Positions 3,832-29,550 of a DNA stretch of 31,374 nucleotides are shown piece after piece. The position numbers were made by a program, and so were the translations under genes. The notes under the pieces are model-generated. The model had not been told where the DNA came from and searched no databases. It worked only from the letters and a program-made list of their open reading frames with translations. Numbering within the stretch: the first letter of the stretch is position 1; every line of letters begins with the position of its first letter. The DNA comes from a virus, in IMG/VR virus record IMGVR_UViG_3300042691_018666, positions 1 to 31,374 of that record. One strand, 5' to 3'.

Positions 3832-5862
3832 TTAATATAACTTAATCTCACATGCATCTGTTGAGCAATATTTTTCAGACTCAGCGTCTAAATTATCTTT
3901 GCCGTCATAAATTGCAGACCAATCAATCTTTCCAATTGTGCCAACATAAGAGTTATATTGCTCTCTTGTGATCTCTGTATATGGCTGCTGAGGATATGTT
4001 TTATTTCCCATTGGAAGGAATGAAACTGCCTTTAATTGACCTTCATACATGTTTAGTGCTGGAGCAACAAACTTCTTTTCCTCTTCTTTATCAAATGATA
4101 GAGTTACAGAAACACCATTGTCTGACCAGTACTTTTGGGCAGTTGCTGCTAAACCAATTTTTTCAAATAGACTTACCTGCTTTTCAGAACGCTTATGTCC
4201 TGATGCAACTGGGAAGTATACTACTGAGGTATTTGCTGATACTAAGTCGTCTTCAACCTTATACCCCGCTGCTTTGAAAAGATGAAGCATTGGGTCTGTA
4301 TTTCCAAAACGAATGGCACGAAGATAAAATTCTCCTCCAGGGCCCCAGTGAACTCCAGGAGTAGCGCCAGAAAGAAGTGATACAGATCCTGATGGCTTAA
4401 CTGTTGTTACACGGACTGATTCACGAACACAAAGCCACTCTGAATATTGGTGGTCATAATGACGAATCTTGTTATACCCTTCGTCCATCCATTCACGAGT
4501 TGTTGGAAGACCATGCTCATCAGCAAATGCAGCAATGCCTGTAAGAGATGTTCCAATACGACGGTTTCTTTGCATGATACCGTTTGTCTGCTGCCAATGT
4601 GTAGGCATTAGGGTTACAGTCTTTCCATAAAGATATGCAAACTTCAATGTCTTGAGGAAGTCCTCCTTAGATTCATGACGATTTAGGTGCACTTCTACAA
4701 GTGTACAGAGTTCGTATGATTCTAATGGCTGCTCCGCACAAGGATTGAAGCCCATAATGCGAGTGTCCTTGTAATCAGGAGCATCTGCAAGACGGCCATA
4801 ATTACGTGCAACGTCTAGCCAAATAAAACCTGGCTCTCCGTTGTCTGCAATTAAATCTACATAGTCTTCGTACTTTGTTCCAACTGTTGCTGAAATAGAA
4901 TTATTAGACATCCAAGCCCAACCTGGTTTTTCTGGATCATAAGAATTACGCTCTGGAAATACTTCTGGATTCTTAAGATTAATAAATCCATCATCTTCTG
5001 GAGTTCCAAGTGCAAGGGTTGCAGAACGACGAACATTGCCAGAAACAACACAAGTTCCAATAAGGTTTACAATATCAACAATAGCACGACTATCAAGGGC
5101 TTCTCCTGCTCTAGAGCCCACAACATTACGAATACGTACATGGAGATCAATCAGTGGTGCTGGACCGCTTGCTACCCCTCCAAAGCCCTTAATTGGTGCT
5201 CCTAGTGGACGGATAAGGTCATAGTTAAACTCTTGAATTGGCTGGTTTTGACGAAGGAATGAGTTAATCAAAAGACGAACTGACTCTACCCATCCCTCAC
5301 GAGTATCAGGAATTTCATAAATAGATGCAGGCTCAGTAGGAGCATAAATAGACATCTGCTTGTCTTGTCCAAGGGTATCAAAACCTACCCCAATACCCAA
5401 CATTAATGCATCCATTACCCAAGCAAATAATGCACCAGGATCGTTACGATCAATGTCTCTTGTTGAAACCATTGCACAGTTTTGAAGGGAAGCAGAGTTT
5501 CGCTTCTCCATAGTCATAGGAGTTCCAAATGCCCAAAGACCACGGCCTGGAGGTGTCCATTTTAATTCAAACATTCTTTGAAAGGCTTCTTGTGCAGACT
5601 TCTGTGCCTTGTTATCATTCCATGGTAGACGATTATCTTTAGCGTGGTTCTTCTGCACTGAATACATACCCTCAATTACACGGCGACAAACCTCATGCCA
5701 ACGTTCTTTTGTACCGTCCTCTTTAACACGAGAATATGTGCGAATAAATGTAACCTCTCCTAAAGAGTTTGACCCAGCATCTGAGAATCCAAATGGTGCT
5801 GGAACATTATTATATTTATTTACAAAATCTTCTGATAGACGAAACGAAAAAACTTCTGACAT
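3832..5862 (-). CDS. Adenosylcobalamin-dependent (class II) ribonucleoside-triphosphate reductase
   Basis: The 676-residue product aligns by eye over its whole length with the monomeric Lactobacillus leichmannii RTPR. The reaction reduces ribonucleoside triphosphates to deoxyribonucleotides, supplying phage DNA synthesis. Expected catalytic residues are present: Cys129 in SLQNC, the radical Cys375 and Glu377 in NPCAE, Cys386 as its disulfide partner, and the C-terminal shuttle pair Cys666 and Cys671 with the same spacing as Cys731/Cys736 of L. leichmannii. VKPSGSVSLLSGATPG (488-503) and RRIGTSLTG (434-442) are family blocks. Length is somewhat below the usual ~740. AAAGG precedes the ATG. It has its own promoter and sits between tail genes, an unusual place for a nucleotide-metabolism gene. 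No nrd partner gene is adjacent, as expected for a monomeric class II enzyme. Confidence 0.95.
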   Translation of the reverse strand: MSEVFSFRLSEDFVNKYNNVPAPFGFSDAGSNSLGEVTFIRTYSRVKEDGTKERWHEVCRRVIEGMYSVQKNHAKDNRLPWNDNKAQKSAQEAFQRMFELKWTPPGRGLWAFGTPMTMEKRNSASLQNCAMVSTRDIDRNDPGALFAWVMDALMLGIGVGFDTLGQDKQMSIYAPTEPASIYEIPDTREGWVESVRLLINSFLRQNQPIQEFNYDLIRPLGAPIKGFGGVASGPAPLIDLHVRIRNVVGSRAGEALDSRAIVDIVNLIGTCVVSGNVRRSATLALGTPEDDGFINLKNPEVFPERNSYDPEKPGWAWMSNNSISATVGTKYEDYVDLIADNGEPGFIWLDVARNYGRLADAPDYKDTRIMGFNPCAEQPLESYELCTLVEVHLNRHESKEDFLKTLKFAYLYGKTVTLMPTHWQQTNGIMQRNRRIGTSLTGIAAFADEHGLPTTREWMDEGYNKIRHYDHQYSEWLCVRESVRVTTVKPSGSVSLLSGATPGVHWGPGGEFYLRAIRFGNTDPMLHLFKAAGYKVEDDLVSANTSVVYFPVASGHKRSEKQVSLFEKIGLAATAQKYWSDNGVSVTLSFDKEEEKKFVAPALNMYEGQLKAVSFLPMGNKTYPQQPYTEITREQYNSYVGTIGKIDWSAIYDGKDNLDAESEKYCSTDACEIKLY

Positions 5863-6020: not shown

Positions 6021-7568
6021 TTATGCACCAATTAGCATTAATTCGCTAAATGATGCCCCACCTGATGCCCACTTAACACCAGTTCCAGTTGACTGTAGGT
6101 ATAGTCCGTTAGTTCCAGCAGAACCTCCAGCAGTCAATGTTCCAGTAAGTGTTGCTCCAGATAGTGTCAGACCAGTAATTGTTGTTACTGTTGCACCTGA
6201 TGCTATTGATGTTGATCCAAGCGTTGGGGCTGAGTATCCTGTTACAGTTCCCCAAGAAGTTGAAGTTCCATCTGTTGTAAGGTACTTTCCTGAATTTCCA
6301 GTTTGAGAAGCAACTGGATTAGTTACACTAAATTCTGTTCCAGTTAAAGTTAAACCAGTTCCAGCAGTATATGTTCCTGCTCCAGAAAATTGTGTGAAAG
6401 CAATAGCATCAGTACCAATTGTTACTGGTTTATTTGTTTGAACCCAACCAGTTGCTGCATTAACGGTGCCTGAGTATACAAAAACAAAGTCTCCGCTATC
6501 TATCTCAGTTGCAGTATCAAAGTCTGTAGCACGAGTTGGCTGACCAGATGCCTGGACCACATATATACCATTTTCTGATGCAGTGCTTTGATTCTTTACA
6601 AGAATTCTATTTCCTGTAGCAAGTGTGATACCATCAAGAGTATCTCCATTTTCAAGAGCACTTGATAAAGTGACATTTGTTGTTGTTGCAGCAACTACTG
6701 CTTCATGAATATGTAATCCCTCTGCTATTGCATCTACATAAGACTTTGTTACTGCGTCTGCAGAATCTGTAGGGGTTCCAAGTCCTGTAATTTTATTTGT
6801 TCCCATTGCAATAGAACCAGTCATGGTACCGCCAGCAAGTGCTAGTTTGGCTGCAAGATCTGTTGTAAGTCCATCAATCTTAGACTGAGCAATTGCTGCT
6901 GATGCATTAATATCAGCGTTAACAATTGTTCCATCAAGAATCTTACCTGAAGTTACTGCACCGTCTGCTAGATCTCCAGCAACGATTGTTCCATCCAAGA
7001 TCATTGCTGATGTAACTGTTCCTGTTGGAAGGGTTACAGTTCCTGTAAATGTTGGTGAATTAAGTGGAGCATATGAAGATAAATCCGATGTAATGGCTAC
7101 TGTGCCTGTTGCATCTGGAAAAGTAATAGTACGATCAGCGGTTGGGTCTCCAGCAGAAAGTGTAAGTTCAAAAGCATCTGCCGTAGAACCTTCCATTGTA
7201 ATAGTTGAAGAGAATACACCAATGTCTGTAATATCTGAAAGGTTTCCTGTTGTAATTACTGTACCGCTTGCATTTGGAAGCGTAATAGTTCTATCCGCTG
7301 TTGGATCTGTTACCTGAAGAGTAGTCTCATATGCATCTGCGGTTGCTCCCTCAAATACAATATTTGTACCAAATGATGGATTAATTGTTGAGTTAATATC
7401 AGAAAAATAATCAAGGTCTGCCCAATAAGATACTCCATCGCCTATCTTGAACTTATTAGTGTCTGACTCCCAGCCAATTTCACCAGCATTTAGGATTGGA
7501 CCATTACCGCTATTAGAAGATATCCACTGTGATGCGGTACCTCTACGTTGTTGCATTCTTGTTGCCAT
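6021..7568 (-). CDS. Tail fibre protein with Mtd-like N-terminal domain
   Basis: The 515-residue product starts with a short attachment domain (RRGTASQW, then GEIGWESDTNKFKIGDG, residues about 8-50) typical of phage fibres related to the major tropism determinant N-terminus. Two copies of a module follow, VFEGATADAYETTL / DPTADRTITLPNASGTV and MEGSTADAFELTL / DPTADRTITFPDATGTV (about 71-157). A longer block from about 280 to 400, with NGDTLDGITLATGNRILV and SENGIYVVQASGQPTRATDFDTATE, recurs nearly unchanged in the neighbouring 788-residue fibre. It is a trimeric-fibre type sequence without transmembrane segments. GGAGG and a TGATATAAT promoter support the start. A role as side or tail fibre is likely; the receptor is unknown. 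Confidence 0.85.
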   Translation of the reverse strand: MATRMQQRRGTASQWISSNSGNGPILNAGEIGWESDTNKFKIGDGVSYWADLDYFSDINSTINPSFGTNIVFEGATADAYETTLQVTDPTADRTITLPNASGTVITTGNLSDITDIGVFSSTITMEGSTADAFELTLSAGDPTADRTITFPDATGTVAITSDLSSYAPLNSPTFTGTVTLPTGTVTSAMILDGTIVAGDLADGAVTSGKILDGTIVNADINASAAIAQSKIDGLTTDLAAKLALAGGTMTGSIAMGTNKITGLGTPTDSADAVTKSYVDAIAEGLHIHEAVVAATTTNVTLSSALENGDTLDGITLATGNRILVKNQSTASENGIYVVQASGQPTRATDFDTATEIDSGDFVFVYSGTVNAATGWVQTNKPVTIGTDAIAFTQFSGAGTYTAGTGLTLTGTEFSVTNPVASQTGNSGKYLTTDGTSTSWGTVTGYSAPTLGSTSIASGATVTTITGLTLSGATLTGTLTAGGSAGTNGLYLQSTGTGVKWASGGASFSELMLIGA

Positions 7569-12829: not shown

Positions 12830-13552
12830 ATGAAGAAAAAAATAGTAAAATTTTTTAGAGAAATTGAACTTCAGGGTGCGGAATTTTTAGATAAACCAAA
12901 ACCAGCAAAAGCGTATATACCAAAATGGTATAAAGATTCTGAATCGTATTCAGATGACAACTATCCACATTTTCATGGAAATGGGGAAGTTGGAAATACA
13001 AACGCTGGTTTAAAAAAATGCATTCCTTTTTTAGATGGTATGACATATGGATATATGCTAGAAACTGCAATGGATATAATTGTTGAACTTGATGATGCTG
13101 GAAATCCAAGACTTTCTTGGGGTGGAACTCCAAAACCACTTGCTGAAAGATTTGGAAAAGTTGGATCATTAATTCCAAGACCTTCTGGACACCATGAAAA
13201 TCATTTTGCTTGGCAACTTCCTTTTGGATTTAAAACTCCTAATGGATATAGTTGTATGATAACTCACCCATTAAATAGATTTGATCTTCCATTTACAACT
13301 ACTTCTGGAGTAATGGATAGCGATAAATATTCTACTGGTGGATTCATTCCTTTTTTTTTGAGAAAAGATTTTGAAGGAATAATTCCAGCAGGGACACCAT
13401 ATGCACAACTAATTTTTATTAAAAGAGACAGTTGGAAGTCTATTGAAGATCCAGAATTATCAAAAAATGCAAAAAAACTAAGATGGAAAACAAGAGCAGT
13501 TCATTCTGGATATTATAAAAATAACTCTTGGCAAAGAAAAAGTTTTGAATAA
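12830..13552 (+). CDS. Phage protein of a DUF6065-like family, paralogue 1
   Basis: The 240-residue product is one of three clear paralogues here. Shared blocks are AKAYIPKWYKD (26-36), KKCIPFLDGMTYGYM (62-76), GYS (139-141), DSDKY (163-167), PFFLRKDFEGII (174-185), GTPYAQ (188-193), KRDSW (198-202), and a C-terminal W..KSF. The pattern GY(S), then LPF, then G(V)xDxDKY, then GxxxxGTP resembles DUF6065 proteins. That link is by eye and remote. The function of such proteins is unknown, though they travel with tryptophan-halogenase genes in phages. The next paralogue overlaps its stop by one base (TAATG), so the two are coupled. No membrane segment is present. Confidence 0.75.
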   Translation: MKKKIVKFFREIELQGAEFLDKPKPAKAYIPKWYKDSESYSDDNYPHFHGNGEVGNTNAGLKKCIPFLDGMTYGYMLETAMDIIVELDDAGNPRLSWGGTPKPLAERFGKVGSLIPRPSGHHENHFAWQLPFGFKTPNGYSCMITHPLNRFDLPFTTTSGVMDSDKYSTGGFIPFFLRKDFEGIIPAGTPYAQLIFIKRDSWKSIEDPELSKNAKKLRWKTRAVHSGYYKNNSWQRKSFE

Positions 13553-14295
13553 TGGCTCAAAAAATCAAATTTGTTTTGGCTGAAAAAAAATATAAATCTA
13601 TTGCTCCAACGCCAGTGCCTGCTATAAAAATGTTGCCTGAATGGTTTAAGAATACTCCATCTACATGGAATAGTAAGAATCCAAACATGCCTATTTTAAC
13701 ACCTCATGATGATCATCACTATGAAACAAAGCAAATAAATTTAACAATAAAAAAATGTGTTCCTTTAAGAGATTCAATGTCTATGGGATATATAATTCCA
13801 ACTATTGCAGATATTCAAGTAAAAAATATTGAAGAAACAGGTGAAAAGTATTTAAACTGGATACTTCCAAATTCAACACTAATTACTGGACATAATGAAG
13901 ATCAATTACCACTTTTACCAGTAGGAGACGAGTTTCAGGAATATGCATATAAGTGGATTAATCCATATTTTATAAAAACACCAAAAGGCTATAGTTCTTT
14001 ATTTATAACACCAATGCATCACGATCTTCCTTTTTACTGTCTGCCAGGTGTTGTAGATACTGATAAATATCCTGCAGTTGTACACTTCCCATTTTTCATG
14101 AAAAAAGATTTTCAAGGAATTATTGAAAAAGGTACTCCTATGATTCAGGTTATACCTTTTAAAAGAGATGAGTGGTTGTCAGAAATAGATAATTCTGGAG
14201 ATGGTTTTGACAATGTAGATGCTATGAGTTTAATTAGATCAAAAATTATAGCATCATATAGAAATCAATTTTGGAACAAGAAAACCTTTAATTAA
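13552..14295 (+). CDS. Phage protein of a DUF6065-like family, paralogue 2
   Basis: The 247-residue product shares every main block with paralogue 1: PAIKMLPEWFK near residue 23, KKCVPLRDSMSMGYIIP, GYSSLFITP, VDTDKYPAV, PFFMKKDFQGII, GTPMIQVIPFKRDEW and a C-terminal FWNKKTF. It adds a slightly longer acidic loop before the last helix. The two genes probably arose by tandem duplication. The start codon overlaps the preceding stop. The gene ends four bases from the converging minus-strand gene, with a 16-bp perfect AT palindrome (AATTAATATATTAATT, 14290-14305) across the junction but no proper terminator. Confidence 0.75.
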   Translation: MAQKIKFVLAEKKYKSIAPTPVPAIKMLPEWFKNTPSTWNSKNPNMPILTPHDDHHYETKQINLTIKKCVPLRDSMSMGYIIPTIADIQVKNIEETGEKYLNWILPNSTLITGHNEDQLPLLPVGDEFQEYAYKWINPYFIKTPKGYSSLFITPMHHDLPFYCLPGVVDTDKYPAVVHFPFFMKKDFQGIIEKGTPMIQVIPFKRDEWLSEIDNSGDGFDNVDAMSLIRSKIIASYRNQFWNKKTFN

Positions 14296-14688: not shown

Positions 14689-15735
14689 CTATGCATACCA
14701 ATAAATTCGTGCGATTCCTGCAGAACCAAAGTTATTCCAAGCACCGCCATTACCATGTCCAGAAGCAGCCGTTCCTGTTGATCCTCCTGGTGGATTCATT
14801 CCATTGAAAGACGCAGTTGAACCTCCAGCACCATAATTTGAACCACCTGTTGGCTGATACCAGTAGTTACCTTGTGGGGCATCAGATGCACCATTAAATG
14901 GGTTTCCTGCTCCACCACCGCCTGTTCCCCAACCTGCCCCAAACTGCTCTGCTCTATTAAATGTAGCCATAATAATATTTGTATTTCCATTTGGTGCTAG
15001 ATGAGCCATCGAAGCACCCATAGCACCTGCTTGAAGATTAGATTGATCAAAATACATACTGCCACTGTATATATTAGAAAAACCACCAGGACCACCGTGT
15101 GATGTATATGTTGTTCCGCCAATAACAATTGATGTATTTCCACCATGTGCTGATGAACCTGAGTTAGTTCCTCTTGCACCAATTGTTACAGTATAGCCAG
15201 TTGATGGAGTAACGCTTACATCAAGCCATGCTTTAACATCTGAGGCATTTCCTCCTTGACCTTGGCGATTGCTACCGCCACCACCACCGCCACCTACTAA
15301 ATAAAAGTTTGCCTTTGTAACACCTGCAGGGCATGTCCATGTTCCAGTTGAGGTAAAGTCTTGATAAGTAAGCGTTCCTAAGCCAAACTTAAGTGTTGCT
15401 GTAAATGAATTTGCTTGTCCTGCTCCAACACTGTTATTTGGTGTAATTCTAAATGTATAATTTGTTCCGTTGGTTAAACCAGTGATATTTGCTGTTGTTC
15501 CTGCTTGGTTTGCTGCAAAAGTTGTATACGATCCAACAGAAGTTACAGCATGCTCTACCTTATAACCAGTGATTGTGTCGTTTCCGTTATTTGATGGTGC
15601 AGACCAAGAAAGGTCCATCTGTGTTGCAGATGATGGTGTTGCACTAAAGGTAGATATTGGTCCAGGAGTTGTCTTTGCTGGGAAAGATGCACCTGTTGCT
15701 GTGCTTTGTATTGATCCATTAGAACGTATTGCCAT
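14689..15735 (-). CDS. Tail adhesin with FN3 and glycine-rich domains
   Basis: The 348-residue product has a fibronectin type III domain (about 23-115: PGPISTFSATPSSATQMDLSW, then GYKVEH and NGTNYTFRITP). A glycine-rich adhesin region follows (about 120-348) beginning FTSTGTWTCPAGVTKANFYLVGGG, with GGGGGGGSN and GWGTGGGGAGN. Such glycine-rich domains form the receptor-binding tips of many phage tail fibres. The C-terminus (GSAGIARIYWY) is the usual end of this fold. It starts two bases after the preceding gene and has no promoter of its own, so it is in an operon with the 110-residue protein. I regard this as the likeliest host-range determinant of the right tail cluster. Confidence 0.85.
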   Translation of the reverse strand: MAIRSNGSIQSTATGASFPAKTTPGPISTFSATPSSATQMDLSWSAPSNNGNDTITGYKVEHAVTSVGSYTTFAANQAGTTANITGLTNGTNYTFRITPNNSVGAGQANSFTATLKFGLGTLTYQDFTSTGTWTCPAGVTKANFYLVGGGGGGGSNRQGQGGNASDVKAWLDVSVTPSTGYTVTIGARGTNSGSSAHGGNTSIVIGGTTYTSHGGPGGFSNIYSGSMYFDQSNLQAGAMGASMAHLAPNGNTNIIMATFNRAEQFGAGWGTGGGGAGNPFNGASDAPQGNYWYQPTGGSNYGAGGSTASFNGMNPPGGSTGTAASGHGNGGAWNNFGSAGIARIYWYA

Positions 15736-17618: not shown

Positions 17619-18353
17619 TTAACAGACTGATATATATATACCATTTAAAACAATGGTACTTTCCATGTCAGTTCTGGCTTGTGGTCTTGCTCCATACCCT
17701 TTGATTCTTTGGTCATCTATGTATAAGGTTTGGTAAACTGACATATCATAAGAATATTGATACTTAAGGTTTGCCACATAGGAAGTTGGTGAATTTTTAT
17801 ATTTTTCATTAAATGTTCTAAACCATAACTCTGTATAGTTTGATTCTGTGGAGATAGTAAAGTCATATCTTATATCTACCTTAGCCCCTAGTTTTAATGA
17901 CTTAAAATTAAACATGTTCATATCTGCTTGCCATAATTCGTTAGAGCCTTTTGGCATATAAATTTTACTTGAGGTGTCTTCTTTTGGATTAAATATAATA
18001 GATACCCAGCCATCATCTCCTCTTTGTGGTCCAAGTTGGGTTAGTCTATCTGATCCATTTTCATAATATGCCCATCCTGGATACTGACCAGATACTGAGT
18101 CATACCCCTCAGCACCCTTTCCTGGCTCTCCACGCTCTCCTTGCGGACCAGGCTTTCCAGGATCACCCTTTTGGCCCTGTGGCCCTGTATCGCCCCTATC
18201 ACCCTTATCTCCTTTAGGTCCAGTCTCTCCACGTTCACCTTGAATTCCAGGAACTGCAAGATATTCTTTTATTTCTTGTGGACTTGAAGATTTTACTGCG
18301 TCAAGATAGTTTTTCTTTTTTAGTGGCTGAGGTGGATCCATGCTAGTTGCCAT
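17619..18353 (-). CDS. Collagen-like tail fibre protein
   Basis: The 244-residue product has 15 unbroken Gly-X-Y triplets at residues 36-80 (GERGETGPKGDKGDRGDTGP and on). These would form a trimeric collagen-like stalk. A globular C-terminal domain (about 83-244) is rich in Tyr and Ser and probably binds the receptor or ends the trimer. The N-terminal 35 residues are basic and likely attach to the tail. GGGGATGGG precedes the ATG. The small 28-residue gene stops 11 bases upstream and the two are in one operon. Confidence 0.82.
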   Translation of the reverse strand: MATSMDPPQPLKKKNYLDAVKSSSPQEIKEYLAVPGIQGERGETGPKGDKGDRGDTGPQGQKGDPGKPGPQGERGEPGKGAEGYDSVSGQYPGWAYYENGSDRLTQLGPQRGDDGWVSIIFNPKEDTSSKIYMPKGSNELWQADMNMFNFKSLKLGAKVDIRYDFTISTESNYTELWFRTFNEKYKNSPTSYVANLKYQYSYDMSVYQTLYIDDQRIKGYGARPQARTDMESTIVLNGIYISVC

Positions 18354-20291: not shown

Positions 20292-21878
20292 GTGATTAAT
20301 TTAAATAAAATAGTAATTGTTGGCGGTGGATCTGCTGGCTGGATGTCTGCAGCAACAATGATAAAAGCCTTTCCAGAGAAAGAAATTGTTGTAATTGAGT
20401 CTCCTGATTATCCAATAATAGGTGTTGGTGAGTCAACCCTTGGAGGCATTACAGGATGGGCTAATTGGATCGGTATTGATGAGAAAGATTTTATGCCAGC
20501 AACAGATGCCGTATATAAGATGTCCATTAAGTTTACAGATTTTTATAAGAAGGATTCTGGTGGATTTCATTATCCATTTGGAAATCCATTTTTAGAAGGA
20601 ACTCTTGATGGGTTAACTGACTGGTATTTTAAAAAAGTTAAATTACCAGATCTAGATGTTGCTGATTACGCTAGAACCTTTTTTCCTGCTTTAACTTTAG
20701 CAGAACAAAATAAACTATCTTGGAACAAGTCTGGAAAATTAGGAAACTTTAATTTTAAAAAAGATGTTGCATACCACTTCGATGCTACCAAGTTTGGTCA
20801 ATGGCTAAAGAATAACTATTGTATTCCTCGTGGAGTAACAGTAATTCCCCAAACAGTAGAAACAGTAAATACAAATGAAGAAGGTATTGAATCCTTAGTA
20901 TTGACAGATGGAACACTTATTACATCAGATCTATTTATTGACTGTACAGGATTTAAATCTATGCTACTTGAAGGAGCATTAGAAGAACCTTGGAATGACC
21001 AAAGCCACATGCTTCCAAATAATAGCGCATGGGCTACACGTATACCCTATACAGATAAAGAAAAAGAAATGGAACCTTACACTAACTGTACTGCAATTGG
21101 AAACGGATGGGTATGGAATATTCCATCTTGGGAACGAATTGGAACAGGATATGTGTTTAGCGATAAATATATTTCTAAAGAAGATGCATTAAAGGAGTTT
21201 AAGGAGCATCTTCGCTCAGACAAAATGACTGTTTATAATCCAAATCGTGACGTAGAGGCGCTAGAGTACAAGTATATTAAGTTTAGAGTAGGTATACACG
21301 AACGTACATTTGTAAAGAATGTTGTTGCTATTGGATTTGCTGCTGGATTTATTGAGCCTTTAGAATCTAATGGATTATTTACAGTTCATGAATTCTTAGA
21401 TAAATTGGTAAAAACTTTACAGCGTAAAACAATAACTCAGTGGGACAGAGATGCTTATAACATGAATACAAGCAGACAGTATCTTACATTTAGAGAATTT
21501 GTTGCACAGCATTATGCACTTTCTAATAGAACTGATACACAATATTGGCGTGATATAACCGAAAAAACTTATAAGCCAGATGTTCCATTATTAGAGCCAT
21601 CAATGATTCCAGGATTTCAAGATCTAGCAGATATTCAGTTTAATACACAAAAACACAACGGTTACTCTGGAATTCACTGTATTGCAACTGGAATGAATTA
21701 TATGCCAGTAAATTCTATAGATATTGAAAGATGGATTCATAGAGATGGAATCGATTACTATTATTTTGTTGAAAAAACATTGAAGCAGTGGGAAATTAAT
21801 AGAAAAAAATGGCAAGAAGAAGCAGATTCCTCTCCAACCATGTATCAATGGCTCAAAGAAAATATACACAATAAATAG
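20292..21878 (+). CDS. Flavin-dependent tryptophan-halogenase-like protein
   Basis: The 528-residue product belongs to the FADH2-dependent halogenase family (PrnA/RebH type). It has the FAD-binding GGGSAGW (11-17), the Lys80 that forms the halogenating lysine adduct in PrnA (Lys79), the signature WVWNIP (273-278), and EPLES (355-359), whose Glu358-Ser359 match Glu357-Ser358 of RebH. Length is as expected. The substrate cannot be read from the sequence; it may be tryptophan, another indole or a peptide. No flavin reductase is nearby, so reduced flavin would come from the host. The start is GTG with AGGTGG upstream. Halogenase genes of this family, next to DUF6065-like genes, occur in other phages; their role is unknown. 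Confidence 0.92.
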   Translation: MINLNKIVIVGGGSAGWMSAATMIKAFPEKEIVVIESPDYPIIGVGESTLGGITGWANWIGIDEKDFMPATDAVYKMSIKFTDFYKKDSGGFHYPFGNPFLEGTLDGLTDWYFKKVKLPDLDVADYARTFFPALTLAEQNKLSWNKSGKLGNFNFKKDVAYHFDATKFGQWLKNNYCIPRGVTVIPQTVETVNTNEEGIESLVLTDGTLITSDLFIDCTGFKSMLLEGALEEPWNDQSHMLPNNSAWATRIPYTDKEKEMEPYTNCTAIGNGWVWNIPSWERIGTGYVFSDKYISKEDALKEFKEHLRSDKMTVYNPNRDVEALEYKYIKFRVGIHERTFVKNVVAIGFAAGFIEPLESNGLFTVHEFLDKLVKTLQRKTITQWDRDAYNMNTSRQYLTFREFVAQHYALSNRTDTQYWRDITEKTYKPDVPLLEPSMIPGFQDLADIQFNTQKHNGYSGIHCIATGMNYMPVNSIDIERWIHRDGIDYYYFVEKTLKQWEINRKKWQEEADSSPTMYQWLKENIHNK

Positions 21879-21887
21879 TCTTTAAAA

Positions 21888-21913
21888 TTCGGCGGGATAT
21901 AAGTTAAGCCGAA
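21888..21913 (+). terminator. Hairpin after the halogenase gene
   Basis: TTCGGC and GCCGAA pair around a 14-base loop, ten bases after the stop. The U-run is weak on the plus strand (AAAAT follows) and better on the minus strand. Confidence 0.4.
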
Positions 21914-21946
21914 AATAGAGTACACAAACCTACCCATGACAACATA

Positions 21947-21978
21947 AGGCATAATATGCCTAACAATGTCAAACATTG
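21947..21978. promoter_or_regulatory. Two adjacent 15-base hyphenated palindromes
   Basis: AGGCAT-AAT-ATGCCT (21947-21961) and CAATGT-CAA-ACATTG (21964-21978) each have 6-bp arms and a 3-base centre, and are two bases apart. The second overlaps the -35 of the next promoter. They could be operators. Confidence 0.5.
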
Positions 21979-22005
21979 GACTTATATATTCTTATGGGCT
22001 ATAAT
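21976..22005 (+). promoter_or_regulatory. Leaderless promoter of the zinc-ribbon gene
   Basis: TTGGAC (21976-21981), an 18-base spacer and TATAAT (22000-22005), then six bases and the ATG at 22012. Confidence 0.65.
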
Positions 22006-22011
22006 AGATAT

Positions 22012-22209
22012 ATGAGTGATGACGTAAAGCCTTGGGATTTATTTAATGGATCTCCTAGAAGTCCTGAAGAGGTAGCAGAGTATAGGCTAGAGGTTTGTAA
22101 GGGCTGTGATTTTTTTAGACCAAAAACTCAAACATGCAAGAAGTGTGGATGTTTTATGAAGGCTAAATCTATGCTTGCAAATGCTAAATGTCCAGTGGGG
22201 AAATGGTAA
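22012..22209 (+). CDS. Small zinc-ribbon protein
   Basis: The 65-residue product begins MSDDVKPWDLFNGSPRSPEE. It has a four-cysteine zinc site: CKGC, then CKKCGC (with a further Cys near the C-terminus in AKCPVGKW). Small proteins with this pattern occur in many phages and bind zinc, but the role is unknown. The ATG at 22012 is chosen because TATAAT ends six bases before it; upstream in-frame starts would precede the transcript. The next gene overlaps the stop (TAATG), so the two are coupled. Confidence 0.75.
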   Translation: MSDDVKPWDLFNGSPRSPEEVAEYRLEVCKGCDFFRPKTQTCKKCGCFMKAKSMLANAKCPVGKW

Positions 22210-22940
22210 TGAAAAACAATACAGTAACTATATATTATGCACCCGTCCCACGTATAGACGGGTATCTAGAACATTTACACTACCAAAGCCCAAATCTACT
22301 ATCTACTGAGTATGCTAAAAAGATCATTAAGGGTAGAGGACCATTTTCTAGTTTATTTTCATGCCCTGCTTCTGCAAATAAATTAAAAAGAACTTTAGTT
22401 TATACAAGTCCCTTTGAAATGTCAGTTAAATATGACATAGAAAAAGAGCCTAAGATTTTTGATTTTACTAGAGATAGAATGACAATAGACTTTGTTAGAG
22501 ACCCAATGTTTGATTTTGGTCCAACTCTAGGTTTATCTCTGGGATTTTCAATATTTGCTGATCAGCCTTTAGAGGCTTCTTTTACAGCACCATACTTCCA
22601 CAAAACTCAATACATGAATTATGGATCTGTAATTCCAGGTAACTTTGATATCGGTCAATGGTTTAGACCATATAATTTTGAATTGCAAATGTGGGAAAAC
22701 GCTGGTGAGTTACACATAGAAAAAGATGAACCATTGTTTTATGTTGAGTTTTTAACTGACAAGAAGATTGTATTTAAAGAGTTTGTCTTTACCCCGCTAT
22801 TGGACAAATATATGCAATCTTGTGTTAATTCAACAATTGTTTTTGGATTAGGTCAATCTTTACAGGATCGTTATAATAGATTTAAGAATTCAAGACTTAG
22901 AGAAAAAATTCTTGCAGAGATAAATAAAAATTTGGTTTAA
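22209..22940 (+). CDS. DUF6065-like relative, divergent member
   Basis: The 243-residue product begins MKNNTVTIYYAPVPRIDGYL. It shares the general layout of the three paralogues: an internal GLSLGFSIFADQPL block, IGQWFRPYNFELQMW, then GELHIEKDEPLFYVEFLTDK, which mirrors GIIEKGTPMIQVIPFKRD in paralogue 2. Identity is low, so common descent is an inference. It has no signal peptide or membrane segment. The start overlaps the zinc-ribbon stop; an earlier GTG would overlap that gene by 22 bases and is less likely. It ends two bases from the converging paralogue 3. Confidence 0.65.
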   Translation: MKNNTVTIYYAPVPRIDGYLEHLHYQSPNLLSTEYAKKIIKGRGPFSSLFSCPASANKLKRTLVYTSPFEMSVKYDIEKEPKIFDFTRDRMTIDFVRDPMFDFGPTLGLSLGFSIFADQPLEASFTAPYFHKTQYMNYGSVIPGNFDIGQWFRPYNFELQMWENAGELHIEKDEPLFYVEFLTDKKIVFKEFVFTPLLDKYMQSCVNSTIVFGLGQSLQDRYNRFKNSRLREKILAEINKNLV

Positions 22941-22941
22941 A

Positions 22942-23658
22942 CTATTTAAAACTTTTATTTGTCCAGATATTCTTAACATAGTTGTTTACAATTGTTGAAA
23001 GACTTTCTTTGTTTAAGTTAGCAAAAAATTCTTGCTCATCATAAAAATTAAATGACGATTCCCAGTTGTCTCTTTTAAATGGAACAATCTGTGCAATTGG
23101 AGTTCCCTTTTCAACAATACCATTAAAGTCTTTTTTAACAAATACTGGAGGAAGTAAAGGGTGATGTGATTTATCATAATCTATAATCCCAAAAATTGGT
23201 TTAAATACAGGGTTAGGATATCCTGCTGGTGGCATTATCAATAAAGAGTATCCCTTTGGTAGTTTTGGCACCCAGGGATTTCTATACTTTAGTTGTAGAT
23301 TTTGATCATATCCTTCTGGAACCTCAACCTCTTGACCATTGTGTTCTTCAAATACTGGATAACTAACTCTCCAGTCAATAGATATTTGACCATCATTATT
23401 TTTTACAAGCACATCTGACCATAGTGGTAGCATATATCCAAATGTTAGTGTATCTAGCATTGGACGACATTTTTTAAATGATGCGTTTGTGTTATTGTTT
23501 TCTATAACTAATGTTTTTCCGTCAGGATTTTTAGGACCACGCACATATGGGTCTGCCTCTTTCCACCATTCAGGAATATATTTAGAGGCAGGTTCAGGTT
23601 TTGGAGCAATATCATACATCATTTTGCTTGTTGCCCAGAACTCAATTTTTTTATTCAT
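22942..23658 (-). CDS. Phage protein of a DUF6065-like family, paralogue 3
   Basis: The 238-residue product carries the same blocks as the pair at 12830-14295: ASKYIPEWWKE near residue 24, KKCRPMLDTLTFGYMLP, GYSLLIMPP, IDYDKSHH, PVFVKKDFNGIV, GTPIAQIVPFKRDNW and a C-terminal W..KSF. It lies on the opposite strand and about 9 kb from them. The ATG at 23658 follows AGGTGGGG by five bases; the GTG three codons upstream is inside that ribosome site and unlikely. It follows the 45-residue Cys-rich gene by 14 bases and is in its operon. Confidence 0.75.
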   Translation of the reverse strand: MNKKIEFWATSKMMYDIAPKPEPASKYIPEWWKEADPYVRGPKNPDGKTLVIENNNTNASFKKCRPMLDTLTFGYMLPLWSDVLVKNNDGQISIDWRVSYPVFEEHNGQEVEVPEGYDQNLQLKYRNPWVPKLPKGYSLLIMPPAGYPNPVFKPIFGIIDYDKSHHPLLPPVFVKKDFNGIVEKGTPIAQIVPFKRDNWESSFNFYDEQEFFANLNKESLSTIVNNYVKNIWTNKSFK

Positions 23659-23672
23659 ATACCCCACCTATT

Positions 23673-28827: not shown

Positions 28828-29550
28828 ATGACTAAACTACTCAGAAGCAAAGATAGGAAAGTAACTAATGCCGTATCCCCTAATGGAAAAACCCCAACAA
28901 TTGCCAACACTTTCGGATTACCCGCAGGAAAGGCTTATTCATGTCCTGGAGCGACTAGCGTATGCGAGAGTGTTTGTTATGCTGGCAAATTGGAAAAAGT
29001 ATTCCCAACAGTAAAGAAAAACCTATTACACAATTGGGCATTGCTCAAAGACGCAGATCTTGAGACTATGCAAAGTCTACTATCAGAAATGATAGATGAG
29101 TTTATTGCAGATTGTGAAAAGCGTAATGCTAAAATGCTATTCCGCATTCACTGGGACGGAGATTTCTTTAACGATACCTATACACAGGCGTGGAAGAATG
29201 TCATCCTTAATAATACAAAGATTCAATTCTGGGTTTATACCCGTGTAAAATCAGCCGCCCTTATTCTTAAGGACATTGATAATCTTTCTTTATACTATTC
29301 TACAGATAGCGAAAACAAAGATACAGGAATTGATCTAAAAACTCAGCATGGTATTCGTCTTGCATACCTTGCTAAAAATTTCGCAATTGGACAGGCAGAC
29401 ATGAAAGCCTTGACTAATAAGCCTGGCGCTAAGTGTCCTGAAAACCTTAAGGCTATTCCCTTGATTAGTACTAAGGGTTCGGCTTGCGTTTCTTGCTCAT
29501 TGTGTGTATACTCAAAGAGCGACATAGTATTCTCAGCAACAAAGAAATGA
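28828..29550 (+). CDS. GP88-like phage protein
   Basis: The 240-residue product matches the actinophage GP88 (gene product 88) family by eye: SPNGKTPTIANTFGLPAGKA, CPGATSVCESVCYAG (38-52 or so), FRIHWDGDFF, and a C-terminal CVSCSLCVYS. Two cysteine groups (C-x6-C-x3-C and C-x2-C-x2-C) suggest a metal site, possibly an iron-sulfur cluster. Its biochemical role is not known. It shares a leaderless transcript with the 47-residue basic gene and is followed by membrane micropeptide 3 after six bases. Confidence 0.82.
   Translation: MTKLLRSKDRKVTNAVSPNGKTPTIANTFGLPAGKAYSCPGATSVCESVCYAGKLEKVFPTVKKNLLHNWALLKDADLETMQSLLSEMIDEFIADCEKRNAKMLFRIHWDGDFFNDTYTQAWKNVILNNTKIQFWVYTRVKSAALILKDIDNLSLYYSTDSENKDTGIDLKTQHGIRLAYLAKNFAIGQADMKALTNKPGAKCPENLKAIPLISTKGSACVSCSLCVYSKSDIVFSATKK

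Follow-up and report, generated by a model that had tools for sequence, protein, structure and literature searches.

The stretch of DNA analysed here, hereafter the window, is the 31,374-base IMG/VR virus record IMGVR_UViG_3300042691_018666, and our analysis centred on its flavin-dependent halogenase gene and on four genes whose products are related to the Pfam family DUF6065. Judged from its fibre and collagen-like tail genes and a ribonucleotide reductase, the contig is that of a tailed phage. The left two thirds of the window form a structural module, mostly on the minus strand, with Mtd-type (major tropism determinant) and collagen-like fibre genes. The halogenase gene lies at the right edge of this module on the plus strand, followed by a zinc-ribbon gene and then by a divergent DUF6065-like gene, with which a minus-strand DUF6065-like gene is convergent; two further DUF6065-like genes sit within the fibre module. 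The new elements described below are a predicted dUTPase fold for the DUF6065 family, its frequent occurrence as a neighbour of VirX1-type halogenases, and the fibre-island setting of both. The genes concerned are as follows:

20292-21878, plus strand: VirX1-type flavin-dependent halogenase, 528 amino acids, GTG start (PF04820, match to 6qgm, motifs)
21976-22209, plus strand: small zinc-ribbon protein, DUF6171 family (PF19668, 33 bits versus a cut-off of 27; six Cys)
22188-22940, plus strand: divergent DUF6065-like protein, phrog_17480, predicted dUTPase/dCTP-deaminase fold
22942-23667, minus strand: DUF6065-like protein, phrog_7084, predicted dUTPase fold
12830-13552, plus strand: DUF6065-like paralogue 2, phrog_7084, inside the fibre module
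13552-14295, plus strand: DUF6065-like paralogue 3, phrog_7084, directly after paralogue 2

The halogenase scored 343.7 bits against Pfam Trp_halogenase (PF04820; cut-off 21) and 501 bits against phrog_2928, and its nearest solved structure was VirX1 (6qgm; E 1.4e-107); the best NCBIfam matches, QhpG and LodB, were both far under cut-off. The flavin-binding GxGxxG motif is present as G11-x-G13-x-x-G16 (kept in 110 of 111 relatives) and the WxWxIP motif as WVWNIP at residues 273–278, while Glu358 and Ser359 are both in place, Glu358 being the equivalent of PyrH E354 in the alignment to 2wet (conserved in 105/111 relatives). A preliminary description had reported a complete halogenase with WVWNIP and Glu358-Ser359 in a tailed phage, as well as a zinc-ribbon gene beside it, and in both respects our searches agree. 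Its assignment of the catalytic residue to Lys80 was mistaken: by alignment to PyrH and VirX1 this residue is Lys76, within 'VYK76MSIK80F', which aligns with Lys75 of PyrH 2wet ('GGYKLGIRF') and is invariant in all 111 relatives. PyrH and VirX1 each have Arg at position 80, where 81 of the relatives have Lys and 16 have Arg. With a ratio of non-synonymous to synonymous substitution rates (dN/dS) of 0.058 against the 94%-identical copy of a sister phage, the gene is, by these sequence comparisons, intact and under strong purifying selection, and its motifs predict a functional VirX1-type enzyme. The absence of a flavin reductase, also noted earlier, holds for the Flavin_Reduct family (PF01613), which was found neither in the window nor in any of eight related records (the complete genomes of syn9 and S-CREM1 among them), other reductase families not having been tested. 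As for the zinc-ribbon gene, it was listed with a TTG start, and the ATG at 22012 is the likelier one.

The closest known system is that of VirX1 (cyanophage Syn10; PDB 6qgm), which corresponds to syn9 gp42 (full-length match, 1271 bits) and, according to PMC8407142, forms a trimer whose active site is open. Both enzymes share full-length homology, the catalytic motifs, the lack of a Flavin_Reduct gene in the phage and an adjoining DUF6065-family gene; in syn9, the end of gp42 overlaps the DUF6065 gene gp43. However, VirX1 is ~38% identical to the window halogenase, and its region is rich in 2-oxoglutarate-Fe(II) (2OG) oxygenases with a second halogenase adjoining, whereas the window region is rich in DUF6065-like genes and lacks 2OG oxygenases.

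Recurrent pairing of halogenase and DUF6065-like genes

Three of the four proteins (22942-23667, 12830-13552 and 13552-14295) matched phrog_7084 with E-values from 4e-35 to 1.6e-49, and 22188-22940 matched phrog_17480. All four fall under the Pfam DUF6065 (PF19541) cut-off and gave no significant Pfam or NCBIfam match, although 25 of 64 relatives match that profile (best 5.4e-37); we therefore label them DUF6065-like, and the earlier count of four such genes, two adjoining the halogenase and two at 12830-14295, stands in this sense. The family of 22188-22940 aligned with the DUF6065 family at 94% in hhalign (E 1.4e-7) but at only 9% in a second such comparison, and the two are also tied by a common predicted fold. 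In an IMG/VR scan with 22188-22940 as the sole query, no matches were recovered. Relative to the sister phage, the four DUF6065-like genes show dN/dS values of 0.09–0.23 (22942-23667, 0.087; 12830-13552, 0.233; 13552-14295, 0.136).

DUF6065, of which our literature search found no mention, extends well beyond tailed phages: it was recovered in 49 haloarchaeal virus records, in 145 of 200 Caulobacterales genomes, usually as a single copy, and on some gammaproteobacterial contigs or chromosomes. Across 228 phage and bacterial sequences of the family, only Trp31, Cys64 and Gly74 are invariant. The cellular copies of Caulobacterales differ from those of the window in standing alone, with no nearby halogenase or 2OG oxygenase; we considered them as possible members of halogenase clusters and ruled this out within ~1.5 kb. 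They adjoin genes that, by eye, resemble prolyl-tRNA editing (ProX/YbaK type) and thioredoxin genes.

The co-occurrence of the two families was assessed in 80 IMG/VR loci found by halogenase alone and 80 found by DUF6065 alone, many of them incomplete, so that pairing counts are lower bounds. DUF6065 was present in at least 41 of the 80 halogenase-seeded loci, within two genes of the halogenase in 37 of those 41, and the mean distance in the 41 loci was 1.8 genes versus 4.4 +/- 0.5 with shuffled gene order (0/2000 shuffles as low). In 14 INPHARED records from six cyanophage species, including the phage of VirX1, the gene that immediately follows the halogenase belongs to DUF6065; the Fisher p-value for co-occurrence there (~1e-27) is inflated by kinship among records. 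The zinc-ribbon family is a less regular companion, with relatives in 11/80 halogenase loci and 16/80 DUF6065 loci; the 73-residue syn9 neighbour gp44 was tried as a homologue and ruled out (hhalign 1.3%).

The recurring pairing suggested in the preliminary description is therefore not random, but it is one-way. DUF6065 is a broad family, often joined by VirX1-type halogenases, and it stands without a neighbouring halogenase wherever its surroundings were examined in haloviruses, Caulobacterales and some Gammaproteobacteria. The presence of DUF6065 nearby switches at least 20 times on the halogenase tree, so these modules are often reshuffled. With the link running one way, the suggestion that both families form one system is too strong, even though their adjacency is tight and recurrent.

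Predicted fold of the DUF6065-like proteins

Structure prediction, which had been proposed as a check, assigned a dUTPase/dCTP-deaminase fold to both DUF6065-like subfamilies. For the AlphaFold2 model of 22942-23667 (predicted local distance difference test score, pLDDT, 92.1; predicted template modelling score, pTM, 0.86), all 50 PDB matches listed were dUTPases or their complexes, with a best Foldseek E-value of 1.4e-4. For the separate AlphaFold2 model of 22188-22940 (pLDDT 88.9), the PDB matches listed comprised only dUTPase or dCTP deaminase (best E 2.9e-4). Although neither Foldseek E-value is more than modest, models of two divergent families agree strongly with each other. The fold is weakly echoed by sequence profiles, including weak dUTPase matches in a profile search of the PDB with the wider DUF6065 set. 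The same search with the core set returned toxin matches only, which we judged spurious.

The dUTPase active site is predicted to be partly kept. Asp160-x-Asp162 and Gln190, invariant throughout the core subfamily, resemble dUTPase motifs III and IV, and the Asp-x-Asp and the motif-IV Gln are retained in most DUF6065 members. Unlike members of the trimeric dUTPase/dCTP deaminase superfamily, DUF6065 lacks the motif I Asp (G-Y-D-L), the position after Gly74-Tyr75 being mostly Ile, Thr, Met or Leu; no C-terminal Gly-rich motif V is visible in the DUF6065-like proteins, and the invariant Trp31, Cys64 and Gly74 are additional to the dUTPase pattern. The Asp-x-Asp is also absent from divergent members, including the VirX1 neighbour syn9 gp43. 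The missing motif I Asp, the loss of Asp-x-Asp in divergent members and the small number of invariant residues argue for a family in which the fold has been retained and the function altered. DUF6065, a Pfam family of unknown function present in most Caulobacterales, thereby gains a predicted fold to guide biochemistry.

Fibre-island setting and possible roles

Fibre-like genes, identified by a rough composition-and-cluster criterion (whose composition part is passed by ~27% of all genes of at least 150 amino acids), lie within 5 kb in 59/80 halogenase loci and 71/80 DUF6065 loci. Neighbour families include tail-fibre-assembly, Gly-rich, fn3 and phage-fibre proteins, and the neighbours of DUF6065 are mainly fibre genes. 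The commonest neighbour family of the halogenase is that of the 2OG oxygenases, found in 42/80 halogenase loci and 21/80 DUF6065 loci; cluster c12, often a neighbour of DUF6065, is distantly related to the 2OG oxygenases (hhalign 94%). Among 86 informative halogenases, 24 were accompanied within 3 kb by DUF6065 alone, 30 by a 2OG oxygenase alone, 24 by both and 8 by neither, a mild tendency toward mutual replacement near the halogenase (Fisher p 0.007). Within the window, the fibre module includes the following three genes:

14689-15735, minus strand: Gly-rich fibre-like protein, 348 amino acids (phrog_863, tail fiber assembly, E 7.6e-9), from a cluster that often occurs near DUF6065; candidate substrate on positional grounds alone
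17619-18353, minus strand: collagen-like tail protein with Gly-X-Y repeats, 244 amino acids, 7.4% Tyr, candidate substrate by position only (tail fibre PHROGs)
6021-7568, minus strand: fibre-like protein with a Major-tropism-determinant N-terminal domain, 515 amino acids (PF18454, E 2.6e-9)

Taking these observations together, we tentatively favour the reading that the locus is a fibre-linked accessory cassette, in which the halogenase modifies an aromatic residue of an adhesin and a dUTPase-fold protein binds or presents the substrate. The halogenase and DUF6065 probably act on the same target, since many phages without close kinship carry them as neighbours in the vicinity of tail-fibre genes, among them the phage of VirX1, the sole phage halogenase to have been studied experimentally. 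In such a cassette, reduced flavin (FADH2) would be supplied by a host reductase, and hypohalous acid (HOX) formed by the halogenase would be relayed via Lys76 to halogenate an electron-rich aromatic ring near Glu358. The likeliest substrate would be a Trp or Tyr of an adhesin or fibre protein from the same island, not free tryptophan; a protein-bound residue is proposed by analogy with two related halogenase-like flavoenzymes that act on peptide Trp, the RiPP (ribosomally synthesized and post-translationally modified peptide) brominase SrpI (PMC10858898) and QhpG (PMC7876137). These share related flavoenzyme chemistry and offer a precedent for a protein-bound substrate, although they belong to bacterial RiPP or cofactor-maturation clusters and QhpG hydroxylates rather than halogenates. 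We know of no fibre or DUF6065 genes in the SrpI and QhpG clusters.

The DUF6065-like proteins would most likely bind a ligand or a (trimeric) fibre and act as partner or substrate-presenting subunits for modifying enzymes. dUTPases are commonly trimers, and a three-fold arrangement common to the VirX1 trimer, the dUTPase-fold proteins and the fibres would be an attractive possibility. As 2OG oxygenases occupy the same place in many relatives, halogenation and hydroxylation could be alternative changes to the fibre surface, with an effect on adsorption. The favoured reading draws on the enzyme motifs, selection, adjacency, the predicted fold and the fibre and oxygenase neighbours, from which we infer the protein substrate and the partner role of DUF6065; the halogenation of a virion component raised in the preliminary description fits the same fibre-module setting and oxygenase neighbours, its substrate being deduced from context. 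A more extended version appears doubtful to us: a modular system of fibre post-translational modification, in which halogenase and 2OG hydroxylases diversify aromatic or proline residues of adhesins and DUF6065 proteins, probably as trimers, recruit them, which would also be the physiological role of VirX1. If true, host recognition would be diversified chemically, not genetically. VirX1 is a well-known biocatalyst, and its DUF6065 neighbour and fibre-island location point to testable substrates.

Several points weigh against the cassette reading. No 2OG oxygenase was found within the window, no modified protein has been seen, and the in vitro substrates of VirX1 include many small aromatics (review PMC8407142). 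Since DUF6065 mostly occurs without a halogenase, which was present in at least 4 of the 80 DUF6065-seeded viral loci, it is not necessarily a partner of that enzyme. The proximity to fibre genes is partly expected if the island is a mere cargo hot spot. This last point leads to the explanation that survives best among the rivals, namely that halogenase and DUF6065 are unrelated cargo, co-resident in a variable fibre island and moved together without a common substrate. The one-way link, the family members that lack an adjoining halogenase in haloviruses, Caulobacterales and gammaproteobacterial contigs, and the repeated changes of DUF6065 presence on the halogenase tree would all suit such cargo; however, the pair lies closer than in shuffled orders of the same loci, and DUF6065 is the next downstream gene in six cyanophage species. 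We regard it as possible but less probable than a shared target on the fibre.

Also unlikely, in our assessment, is an auxiliary metabolic role of the kind suggested for cyanophage PrnA and VirX1, in which the enzyme would halogenate a small metabolite of the infected host or of the environment. The free-tryptophan-binding residues of PrnA are Tyr443, Tyr444, Glu450 and Trp455; the window halogenase has Phe, Gln, Gln and Lys at the aligned positions, so that the clamp appears not to be kept, although the local C-terminal alignment is weak, which itself tempers the case for a protein substrate. This comparison does not support the view that cyanophage halogenases chlorinate free tryptophan and give antibiotic protection, which is repeated in PMC9964418, where the annotation presumes free Trp, and called speculative in PMC2984593. 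The broad turnover of small aromatics by VirX1 and its large open active site (PMC8407142) would suit a metabolite, but no biosynthetic partner genes were found beside the halogenase, its neighbours being fibre genes, oxygenases and DUF6065. Our literature search found no natural substrate for VirX1 or any phage halogenase.

Finally, we regard as improbable a nucleotide route, in which DUF6065 would process nucleotides and a halogenated pyrimidine, made or used by the halogenase, would serve to modify phage DNA or to control the nucleotide pool. In its favour are the predicted dUTPase fold of both subfamilies, the fully conserved motif III and IV residues of the core subfamily and the ribonucleotide reductase genes that haloviruses, S-RIM4 and CRP-6 carry close to DUF6065-like ones. 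Against it, motif I Asp and a visible motif V are missing, the VirX1 neighbour is among the members that have lost Asp-x-Asp, haloviruses encode a true dUTPase domain separately, and DUF6065 neighbours are chiefly fibre genes.

Other genes in the window and related loci

In many loci, a Trp-rich membrane protein of ~94 amino acids adjoins the halogenase (for example L010:11580-11861 and L032:10188-10466); this cluster 15 lies near the halogenase in 26/80 loci, and the member tested had no PHROG or Pfam match. Groups of two to five halogenase genes, accompanied by several 2OG oxygenases, are present in many phage loci (among them L036, L043, L045 and L058), and some of these loci also encode a Nol-like carbamoyltransferase. 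Elsewhere, DUF6065 genes adjoin fibre-type proteins with long FGFTP/YSFVP pentapeptide repeats (L155:7460-8788, L162:8661-9971, L161:7490-8785 and 12 more), some of which end in what by eye resembles a Hint (intein-like) domain. Such aromatic-proline (FxFxP) repeat proteins were considered as a halogenase substrate and rejected, as they occur in 15 places near DUF6065 and in no halogenase locus.

The window also encodes a ribonucleotide reductase (3832-5862; B12-dependent type by its Pfam domains) inside the fibre module, flanked by a 1213-residue protein and the Mtd-type fibre gene. The Cys-rich product of 28828-29550 strongly matches phrog_1392 (E 8.8e-94), a PHROG without assigned function, and presumably resembles the gp88-type genes of actinobacteriophages, a possible hint to the host.

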